A DNA stretch of 48,244 nucleotides, taken from Deltaproteobacteria bacterium (GTDB taxonomy: Bacteria > Myxococcota_A > Polyangia > Polyangiales > Polyangiaceae). The position numbers were made by a program, and so were the translations under genes. Below the pieces are notes generated by a model. The model searched no databases. It was not told the DNA's origin and saw nothing but the letters and a program-made list of their open reading frames with translations. Below are positions 40,758-45,216 of this stretch, one piece after another. The stretch's first letter is position 1. Each line of letters opens with the position of its first letter. The stretch lies in NCBI GenBank assembly GCA_016209145.1, contig JACQWT010000046.1, positions 7,564 to 55,807 of the forward strand. The letters run 5' to 3'.

Positions 40758-43262
40758 ATGAGCAAGCACGATCCAGAGGGCGGCGCGCGCGGCCTCGCCG
40801 AGCCGCCGCGCTACGACCACCTGGAGATCGAAGGCCGCTGGCAGCGCTACTGGGAAGAGGACCGCACTTACCGCGCCGTGCGGCGGCCGGGGCGCGAGAA
40901 GCGCTACGTGCTCGACATGTTTCCCTACCCGTCGGGCGCGGGCCTGCACGTCGGGCACCCCGAGGGCTACACCGCCAGCGACATCATGGCGCGTTTCTGG
41001 CGGGCGCGCGGCTACGACGTGCTGCACCCGATGGGCTGGGACGCCTTCGGGCTGCCGGCCGAGCAGCACGCCATCGAGACCGGCACCCATCCGGCCGCGA
41101 CCACCGCCGAGAACATCGGCGTGTTCAAGCGGCAGTTGCAGATGCTCGGCTTCTCCTACGACTGGGAGCGCGAGATCGACACCACGGCGCCCGAGTACGT
41201 GCGCTGGACCCAGTGGATCTTCCTGCAGATGTTCCGCCTGGGCCTGGCCTACCAGGCCGAGGTGAGCGTCAACTGGTGCCCGGCCCTGGGCACGGTGCTC
41301 GCCAACGAGGAGGTGATCGACGGGCTGAGCGAGCGGGGCGGCCACCCGGTGGTGCGCACTCCGCTACGCCAGTGGATGCTCAAGATCACGGCGTACGCCG
41401 ATCGGCTGGCCGAAGACCTCGATCTGCTCGACTGGCCGCAAGGGACGCTGGCCGCGCAGCAGCGCTGGATCGGCCGCTCCGAGGGCGCCGAGATCGTCTT
41501 CGGCGTGGCCGGGCACCCCGAGGAGCGCATTGCCGTCTTCACGACGCGGCCGGACACCGTGCTCGGCGTGACCTACATGGTGCTCGCGCCCGAGCACGAG
41601 CTCGTCGCCAAGGTGGCAACGGCCGAGCACCGCGCCGCGGTTGACGCCTACGTGGCCGAGGCCTCGCGCAAGAGCGAGCGCGATCGCATCACCGAGGCCA
41701 AGGGCAAGACCGGCGTGCCCACGGGCGCCCAGGCCGTCCATCCCCTGACCGGCGCGCTCGTACCCATCTGGATCGCCGACTACGTCATCGGCGGCTACGG
41801 CACCGGGGCGGTGATGGCCGTGCCCGGCCACGACGAGCGCGACTTCGAGTTCGCCACCGCCTACGGGCTGCCCATCGTCGAGGTCGTGAGCCCCGACGCT
41901 GCGCGCCGCGAGAGGCTCGAAGCGGCCTACGTCGAGGACGGCATCAACGTGAATAGCGGCGAGCTCGACGGCCTTGCCACCGCTGCCTGCAAGCGGGCCA
42001 TCGTCGAGAAGCTCGCGTCCGTGGGCAAGGGCGGCGCCAAGGTGGCCTACCGGCTGCGCGACTGGGTGTTCTCCCGGCAGCGCTACTGGGGCGAGCCCAT
42101 CCCCATCTACTTCCCGGTGGAGCTCTGCGATCCGCGGGCCGATCCGCGCCGCGGCGCGCCGCACCGCATCCGCTACGACCGGCCCATCGCGCTGGGCGAG
42201 GCGGAGCTGCCGCTGTGCCTGCCGGCGCTCGACAACTACCAGCCCGGCGACGAGCCGGCCGGGGCTCTCGCCCGCGCCGTCGCGTGGCGCTACTTCGAGC
42301 GGGACGGGCGCTGGTACGCGCGCGAGACCAACACCATGCCGCAGTGGGCGGGCTCGTGCTGGTACTACCTGCGCTTCCTCGATCCGCACGCCGCGGGCTG
42401 CGGCTGGTCGCCGCAGGCCGATCGCGACTGGATGCCGGTGGATCTCTACGTCGGCGGGGCCGAGCACGCCGTGCTGCACCTCTTGTACGCGCGTTTCTGG
42501 CACAAGGTGCTCTACGACATCGGCGCCGTGAAGGATCCCGAGCCGTTCATGAAGCTCGTCCACCAGGGCATGATCCTGGGCGAGGACTGCGAGAAGATGA
42601 GCAAGAGTCGGGGCAACGTCGTCAACCCCGACGACATCGTGCAGCAGCACGGCGCCGACGCCATGCGCATGTACGAGATGTTCATGGGGCCGCTCGATGC
42701 GGTCAAGCCCTGGCAGAGCACGCAGATCGCGGGGGTGGTGCGCTTTCGCGACCGGGTCTTCGCGACCTGCACGCGCGAGCTCGGCGACGAAGTGGACGAG
42801 GCCACTCTGCGCCTCTTGCACCGCACGACCAAGAAGGTCACGGGCGACATCGAGAAGATGGCCTTCAACACGGCGCTGAGCGCGCTGATGGAGCTGACGA
42901 ACCACCTCGCGAGCCTGCCGCACACGCCCCGGCGGGCGGCCGAGACGCTGGTGCTGCTCGTCGCCCCGTTCGCGCCGCACCTCGGCGAGGAGCTGTGGCG
43001 CCGCCTGGGCCACGAGCAGACGCTCGCGTACGAGCCGTGGCCGGCGTACGACGAGGCCCTGTGCGCGCAGGACGTGGTCGAGATCGGCGTGCAGGTCAAC
43101 GGCCGCACCCGCGGCACCGTCAGCATCCCCCGGAGCGCGAGCGCCGACGAAGCGCGCGCCGCTGCCCTGGCGGTGCCGGCCGTCTCGCGTTGGGTGGCGG
43201 GCAAGAGCGAGCGCAAGTTCGTCTACGTGCCGGGTAGAATCGTGAGCTTCGTCGTACAGTAG
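40758..43262 (+). CDS. leuS: Leucyl-tRNA synthetase
   Basis: DMFPYPSGAGLHVGHPEGYTASDIMAR; WIFLQMFRLGLAYQAEVSVNWCPALGTVLANEEV; MSKSRGNVVNPDDIVQQHGADAMRMYEMFMGPL. Confidence 0.98.
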   Translation: MSKHDPEGGARGLAEPPRYDHLEIEGRWQRYWEEDRTYRAVRRPGREKRYVLDMFPYPSGAGLHVGHPEGYTASDIMARFWRARGYDVLHPMGWDAFGLPAEQHAIETGTHPAATTAENIGVFKRQLQMLGFSYDWEREIDTTAPEYVRWTQWIFLQMFRLGLAYQAEVSVNWCPALGTVLANEEVIDGLSERGGHPVVRTPLRQWMLKITAYADRLAEDLDLLDWPQGTLAAQQRWIGRSEGAEIVFGVAGHPEERIAVFTTRPDTVLGVTYMVLAPEHELVAKVATAEHRAAVDAYVAEASRKSERDRITEAKGKTGVPTGAQAVHPLTGALVPIWIADYVIGGYGTGAVMAVPGHDERDFEFATAYGLPIVEVVSPDAARRERLEAAYVEDGINVNSGELDGLATAACKRAIVEKLASVGKGGAKVAYRLRDWVFSRQRYWGEPIPIYFPVELCDPRADPRRGAPHRIRYDRPIALGEAELPLCLPALDNYQPGDEPAGALARAVAWRYFERDGRWYARETNTMPQWAGSCWYYLRFLDPHAAGCGWSPQADRDWMPVDLYVGGAEHAVLHLLYARFWHKVLYDIGAVKDPEPFMKLVHQGMILGEDCEKMSKSRGNVVNPDDIVQQHGADAMRMYEMFMGPLDAVKPWQSTQIAGVVRFRDRVFATCTRELGDEVDEATLRLLHRTTKKVTGDIEKMAFNTALSALMELTNHLASLPHTPRRAAETLVLLVAPFAPHLGEELWRRLGHEQTLAYEPWPAYDEALCAQDVVEIGVQVNGRTRGTVSIPRSASADEARAAALAVPAVSRWVAGKSERKFVYVPGRIVSFVVQ

Positions 43263-43269
43263 CGGCCCC

Positions 43270-44628: not shown

Positions 44629-44631
44629 GCG

Positions 44632-45216
44632 ATGGCTCCGGCAGGTGGCGGCAAGGCCAGGGAGCCCGATCCGGCGATCGGGCTGGTGGAGCTCAACAGC
44701 GTGGCCGTGGGCATTGCCACGGCCGACGCCATGGTCAAGCGCACGCCCATCGAGCTGCTCGAGTGCCGGCCCATCTGCCCGGGCAAGTTCATGGTGCTGG
44801 TGGGCGGGCTCACCGAAGAGGTCAACCAGGCCATGGCGGCAGGTGTGGCGCGCGCCGCGGACGCGGTCGTGGACACGCTGCTCTTGCCCCACGTCCACCC
44901 GTCCATCTTCCCGGCCCTGTGCGGGGCAGTCGAGGCCGGTCCCGTCGAGGCTCTGGGCATCGTGGAGACGATCAGCGTGGCCTCGGCCATCGTGGCGGCG
45001 GATGCGTCGGCCAAGGCGGCGGACGTGCTCCTGACCGAGCTGCGCCTCGCCAATGGCCTCGGGGGCAAGAGCTTCTATCTGATGGCCGGCCCGCTTCCCG
45101 CCGTGCAGGCCGCCGCAGCCGCGGCCAAGGGCAAGATCGGCGAGCTGGGGGTGCTGGTGCGCTGCGAGATCGTGGAGCAACTGCACGAGGCGGTGCGGCA
45201 GAAGGTGAGCTACTAG
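44632..45216 (+). CDS. pduT: Trimeric bacterial microcompartment shell protein, PduT-like (tandem BMC domain)
   Basis: AIGLVELNSVAVGIATADAMVKRTPIELLECRPICPGKFMVLVGGLTEEVNQAMAAG...LLLPHVHPSIFPALCGAVEAGPVEALGIVETISVASAIVAADASAKAADV; ICPGKF and HPSIFPAL match PduT. Confidence 0.93.
   Translation: MAPAGGGKAREPDPAIGLVELNSVAVGIATADAMVKRTPIELLECRPICPGKFMVLVGGLTEEVNQAMAAGVARAADAVVDTLLLPHVHPSIFPALCGAVEAGPVEALGIVETISVASAIVAADASAKAADVLLTELRLANGLGGKSFYLMAGPLPAVQAAAAAAKGKIGELGVLVRCEIVEQLHEAVRQKVSY

Follow-up and report, generated by a model that had tools for sequence, protein, structure and literature searches.

A pduS-pduT pair behind leuS as a probable satellite of a sugar-phosphate-type microcompartment in a Myxococcota genome

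Based on genome-wide searches, structure comparison and phylogenetic trees, we conclude that the window, a 48,244-nt stretch of DNA forming the end of contig C7, harbors a real, well-formed satellite of a known kind of organelle. Its two genes, pduS and pduT, probably serve a sugar-phosphate-type (SPU) compartment with a main locus on another contig of the genome (C270), likely belong to the leuS operon, and would export electrons from lumenal NADH. The genome is a MAG of 7.93 Mb in 596 contigs (92% complete, 8% contaminated), and since C7 stops where the window does, no sequence beyond it can be read. The locus has the following features:

40758-43262, plus strand: leuS, leucyl-tRNA synthetase of 834 aa, identified by its TIGR00396 leuS_bact match; host gene of the likely operon
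43270-44628, plus strand: pduS, predicted NADH/FMN/2x[4Fe-4S] oxidoreductase of 452 aa, identified by domains and four-cysteine motifs
44632-45216, plus strand: pduT, tandem-BMC trimer-type shell protein of 194 aa with pore cysteine Cys49 and two PF00936 domains
44776-44778, plus strand: codon of PduT Cys49, predicted ligand of a pore [4Fe-4S] cluster, aligned with the ICPGKF of PduT 3pac
45214-45332, no strand assigned: MITE-like inverted-repeat element, recognized by its inverted arms, with a TA duplication, immediately next to the stop codon of pduT

The three open reading frames are intact and co-directional, with 7 nt between leuS and pduS and 3 nt between pduS and pduT, exactly as the initial annotation had described them. 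LeuS scores 963.5 bits against TIGR00396 leuS_bact (cut-off 548.4), and its gene is the only copy in the genome above E=1e-100. In codon-position GC, leuS, pduS and pduT are all like the neighboring genes. Reading the junctions directly, we found GAGAGGAG before pduT and saw no clear ribosome-binding site before pduS, where translational coupling to leuS is possible. A scan, which is weak for high-GC bacteria, returned no consensus sigma-70-like promoter between leuS and pduS. Together with the 7-nt gap, this makes co-transcription of leuS-pduS-pduT plausible, with the pair at the downstream end of what is likely a leuS operon. An AAA_14/DUF4143 ATPase gene lies upstream of leuS in the same direction (39467-40600).

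The attachment to leuS is a lineage-specific curiosity. Neither pduS nor pduT stands beside leuS at any of the 40 leuS loci inspected in relatives (37 with at least 500 nt downstream; some genomes are represented twice), and none of the other pduS loci contains leuS; the closest relatives carry lipoprotein-like genes behind leuS. The neighborhood comparison proposed earlier therefore speaks against a conserved linkage: within the sample, in which the genus is represented by the window genome alone, the link is private to this genome, and a functional tie of the pair to LeuS is unsupported.

PduS passes the cut-offs for Complex1_51K (PF01512), SLBB (PF10531; 28.1 versus a cut-off of 27), Fer4_17 (PF13534) and RnfC_N (PF13375), the same four domains that define PduS in excerpts of PMC6325248. 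It contains a glycine-rich GAGGAG at residue 16 and two four-cysteine motifs, C260-x2-C-x2-C-x3-C270 and C305-x2-C-x2-C-x4-C316, with the spacing published for PduS of Citrobacter (PMC2982820). Thus, both the SLBB/RnfC-like sequence and the two clusters that had been read from the DNA were recovered; the nearest solved structures are RnfC subunits, and the genome has a single full-length pduS. The Citrobacter protein oxidizes NADH, holds FMN as well as two [4Fe-4S] centers, and binds PduT (PMC2982820). By analogy, the PduS of the window is predicted to bind FMN and to oxidize NADH.

The tandem-BMC architecture of PduT and its PduT-like ICPGKF and HPSxxPAL motifs, also proposed at the outset, were all found, namely as two PF00936 domains, ICPGKF with Cys49, and HPSIFPAL. 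Its best PDB relatives are the PduT-type structures 3nwg, 3pac and 3n79 (E=1e-39 to 3pac), and an AF2 model with a pLDDT of 88.5 reaches TM values of 0.83-0.88 to these three. Modeling, which had been suggested together with inspection of the pore cysteine, hence gave the fold of solved PduT proteins, with Cys49 located in ICPGKF. The motif fits the pore-cysteine consensus C-P/S/A-G-K-Y/F stated in excerpts of PMC6325248; when the protein is aligned with six relatives from other phyla, Cys49 shows no variation, and no PduT partner among the pairs examined lacks the pore cysteine. A [4Fe-4S] cluster at the pore is accordingly a prediction from aligned residues. Against the NCBIfam equivalog TIGR02526, the protein scores 110.9 bits, below the cut-off of 250.3, and as judged by sequence it is a PduT-type shell protein outside this curated equivalog.

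Shell genes were searched for throughout the genome with PF00936 and PF03319, a check recommended with the initial annotation. On C7, PF00936 matched pduT only and PF03319 matched nothing, in agreement with the earlier remark that the pair is separated from other shell genes in the window, and the remaining shell genes were located on C270. Consequently, the shell set of C7 is incomplete, and a main locus with BMC-H and BMC-P genes resides on C270, in this order:

contig C270: RpiB-DeoC fusion, BMC-H, BMC-P, AldDH, tandem BMC-T, BMC-P, BMC-P, Lon protease, FHA protein

A further BMC-like match on contig C490 is barely above the cut-off (25.1 bits) and lies in a 567-aa frame. The domains PF02502 (RpiB) and PF01791 (DeoC), fused on C270, are the SPU signature (pfam01791 + pfam02502) given in excerpts of Sutter et al. 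(PMC8217296); by its gene content, C270 is an SPU main locus. An aldehyde dehydrogenase with an encapsulation peptide had been named as a search target, and the AldDH of C270 begins with an encapsulation-peptide-like stretch, MSRLSDAAVDAIARRVLERIG, of moderate helical moment. In the tandem BMC-T of this contig, LQPGKF replaces ICPGKF and the cysteine is missing, so that pduT encodes the only PduT-type shell protein with a pore cysteine found in the genome. The first BMC-P (EutN) gene (L031:2118-2357) is damaged in the assembly by an out-of-frame internal deletion of approx. 26 residues, which is either decay or an assembly error. Because of this deletion, the main locus may be decaying.

The tetranucleotide distance between C270 and the window is 0.097, compared to 0.090-0.118 among pieces of the window and 0.20-0.43 for relatives, and this shared composition argues against C270 being a binning artefact. 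The SPU type of C270 and its likeness to C7 support one of two functions suggested earlier, a satellite that provides redox shuttling for a compartment whose genes lie elsewhere. The other, a stand-alone pore or electron conduit, is rejected, since BMC-H, BMC-P and enzymes are present on C270. The visible part of this contig starts approx. 215 nt ahead of where RpiB-DeoC likely begins, inside a dispersed repeat. It contains no alcohol dehydrogenase gene; as its upstream side is cut off, such a gene or another one could be out of view. A direct junction of C7 with C270 was considered and found no support, C270 starting in a dispersed repeat; between pduT and the end of C7 are a gene on the opposite strand and one that encodes cysteine-rich repeats.

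From these components, a working model can be drawn. DeoC would release acetaldehyde within the shell, and AldDH would convert it to acetyl-CoA and NADH, both being activities expected according to excerpts of PMC8217296. Provided that PduT is incorporated into the shell encoded on C270, PduS, bound to its inner face, would oxidize lumenal NADH via FMN and then two [4Fe-4S] clusters, and the electrons would leave through the [4Fe-4S] cluster in the PduT trimer pore to a cytosolic acceptor. In this way, NAD+ would be regenerated in a compartment for which no alcohol dehydrogenase is visible at the locus. The position behind leuS would provide steady, growth-linked expression of the pair, and a separate acetate kinase-PduL fusion would finish acetyl-CoA to acetate:

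L235:8948-11260 (contig C362), minus strand: single 770-aa protein carrying PduL (PTAC) behind acetate kinase and a cyclic-nucleotide-binding domain

Acetate kinase and PduL seemingly also form one open frame in the genomes G289 and G259, as judged by frames and PTAC hits.

We favor electron export from lumenal NADH because of the published NADH oxidation and PduT binding by PduS and because of the potential of PduT: the cluster of a PduT from a pdu compartment has +99 mV and is described as poised to accept electrons (excerpts of PMC6325248). The reverse, i.e., PduT and PduS carrying cytosolic reducing power to a lumenal reductase, is very improbable. The direction of flow through PduS and PduT is treated as open in excerpts of the literature on GRM compartments (PMC6325248), but neither a glycyl radical enzyme nor a lumenal reductase was found on C270, and the potential, albeit a value from a Pdu protein, favors accepting from NADH (PMC6325248, same excerpts). 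A third role would be reduction of B12 (corrin) for a B12-dependent lyase used with the compartment, e.g., ethanolamine ammonia-lyase. PduS of Citrobacter is a corrin reductase, as in the pdu system (PMC2982820), EutB was detected in 19 of the 30 pair-bearing genomes searched, and EUT-module satellites are described for HO, SPU3 and SPU6 in excerpts of PMC8217296. However, an EutB match is absent from the window genome (G000) and also from G289 and G259, the main loci of which are similar to C270, and a B12 enzyme was not found on C270. Owing to the missing EutB, we regard this role as unlikely in the window genome, while it may apply in genomes bearing EutB.

The association of the pair with the SPU type is visible in relatives. 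In G289, which belongs to the same family as the window genome, in G316 and G259, and partly in G217, the pair heads a gene order like that of C270 (pduS-pduT-...-RpiB/DeoC-BMC-H-BMC-P-AldDH-BMC-T-BMC-P-BMC-P); a triosephosphate isomerase gene lies between the pair and the C270-like part in G289, G316 and G259. On this order, we first favored the view that the pair had recently split off the head of the SPU locus in its own genome, and then disfavored it in view of the trees. In the PduS tree, a 100/99 branch separates the PduS of the window from the SPU main-locus clade. The PduT tree shows the same split from main-locus proteins, with lower support than for PduS, and the PduT of the window groups with a Chloroflexota protein (94/91) beside satellite PduTs. 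Moreover, the nearest pair is that of Chloroflexota JAHJIN010000219 (L010), with 53-54% identity in both proteins, so that we consider recent fission quite unlikely. With its closest match in Chloroflexota and a PduS that falls outside the clade of main-locus proteins, the window pair was probably acquired separately or has long been kept separately. Any transfer would not be recent, since the composition is that of the host. According to both trees, what joins pduS-pduT to C270 is a shared genome rather than shared descent.

The pair might also have come to lie behind leuS as a remnant that is passing or without function, as the leuS linkage occurs in one genome only, one BMC-P of C270 is broken, and a mobile element abuts pduT. 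However, pduS and pduT are intact, have normal codon-position composition and kept all tested cofactor residues despite deep divergence from their nearest relatives, which leaves very little probability for a remnant.

To place the pair within the phylum, pduS was searched for in 379 genomes. At E <= 1e-30, 75 genomes gave hits, and PduS proper was set at E <= 1e-69. It occurs in 28 Myxococcota genomes besides that of the window, and pduT adjoins pduS in all of them (28/28), the count for G242 requiring two contig ends to be read together. In addition to these 28, a further family-mate, G026, has the pair in a class II aldolase locus. Other compartment genes accompany the pair in eight (G289, G308, G349, G217, G316, G335, G242, G259). 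In the remaining 20, no other shell gene was present in the stretch read, several of these stretches being short contigs. A BMC-H gene was found in all but one of 30 genomes compared, the exception being G308, a fragmented MAG. Some neighbors of satellite pairs are housekeeping genes and others are not. In six genomes of one family (L185, L195, L197, L201, L205, L206), the pair lies co-directionally 0.1-1.8 kb upstream of rpsL-rpsG-fusA, and G156 has the last 4 nt of pyrG shared with pduS. The pair of G095 is followed by pta and ackA (L183:8882-14485), and that of G239 is preceded by two band-7 genes. It is a tentative idea, and a rather doubtful one at present, that pduS-pduT of Myxococcota is a free-standing redox-port module which repeatedly settled by steadily expressed housekeeping genes (leuS in the window, rpsL-rpsG-fusA and pyrG in relatives) and whose expression is set by growth rate. 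If true, the port module would not be bound to one compartment type, and its expression would be apart from the inducer of the compartment.

Compared to the pdu and GRM pairs (Citrobacter, Salmonella, GRM1/3/5), the window pair is alike in gene order, adjacency, the four PduS domains, the four-cysteine motifs, the pore cysteine of PduT and the fold. It differs in being apart from all other BMC genes, 7 nt behind leuS, and in a PduT below the equivalog cut-off. With SPU loci, C270 shares the fused signature domains, AldDH, BMC-H, the BMC-P triplet and BMC-T. PduS occurs in some SPU loci according to excerpts of PMC4207490, whereas in the present genome the pair stands apart from the main locus, which has one damaged BMC-P gene. 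Satellite BMC loci, as outlined in excerpts of Axen 2014 and Sutter 2021, likewise place a shell gene and an enzyme at a distance from the main locus of their genome; unlike in our case, a tie to a tRNA synthetase gene is not described in these excerpts. Neither is a free-standing pduS-pduT pair in Myxococcota described in the excerpted text of PMC8217296, PMC4207490 and PMC6325248, supplementary tables aside, and this pattern across the phylum is a more interesting finding than the leuS attachment. The window pair shows that a microcompartment can have its electron port encoded, and probably also regulated, away from shell and enzymes; surveys built on single loci can overlook the redox partners of SPU and HO-like compartments. 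With its SPU compartment and without EutB, the genome offers a clean test case for electron export from lumenal NADH by PduS-PduT outside the pdu system.

The Chloroflexota locus L010 differs from the window in that its pduS and pduT are 3.6 kb apart, a further EutN gene is present and leuS is absent; pduS, pduT and the EutN gene are scattered over 8 kb among unrelated genes (L010:3534-11811). Several repeats were observed as well. The arms of the MITE-like element behind pduT are 17 nt long with one mismatch (chance expectation 0.06), and its ends have 75 forward and 82 reverse matches genome-wide, versus 0 for the reversed control. Long tandem cysteine-rich repeat ORFs (CxGxCVDTxxDPxNCGGCGxAC) occupy 37271-39304 and 46889-48244, the latter reaching the contig end, and another cysteine-rich repeat ORF is found on C362. 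Finally, a dispersed GC-rich repeat (GTCCGTCCCTTCGGGACGG...GACGCGCCCTTCGGGCGCGTC) occurs in the window at 16567 (plus strand) and 423 (minus strand) and at L031:1-100, immediately ahead of the RpiB-DeoC gene, the first on C270.
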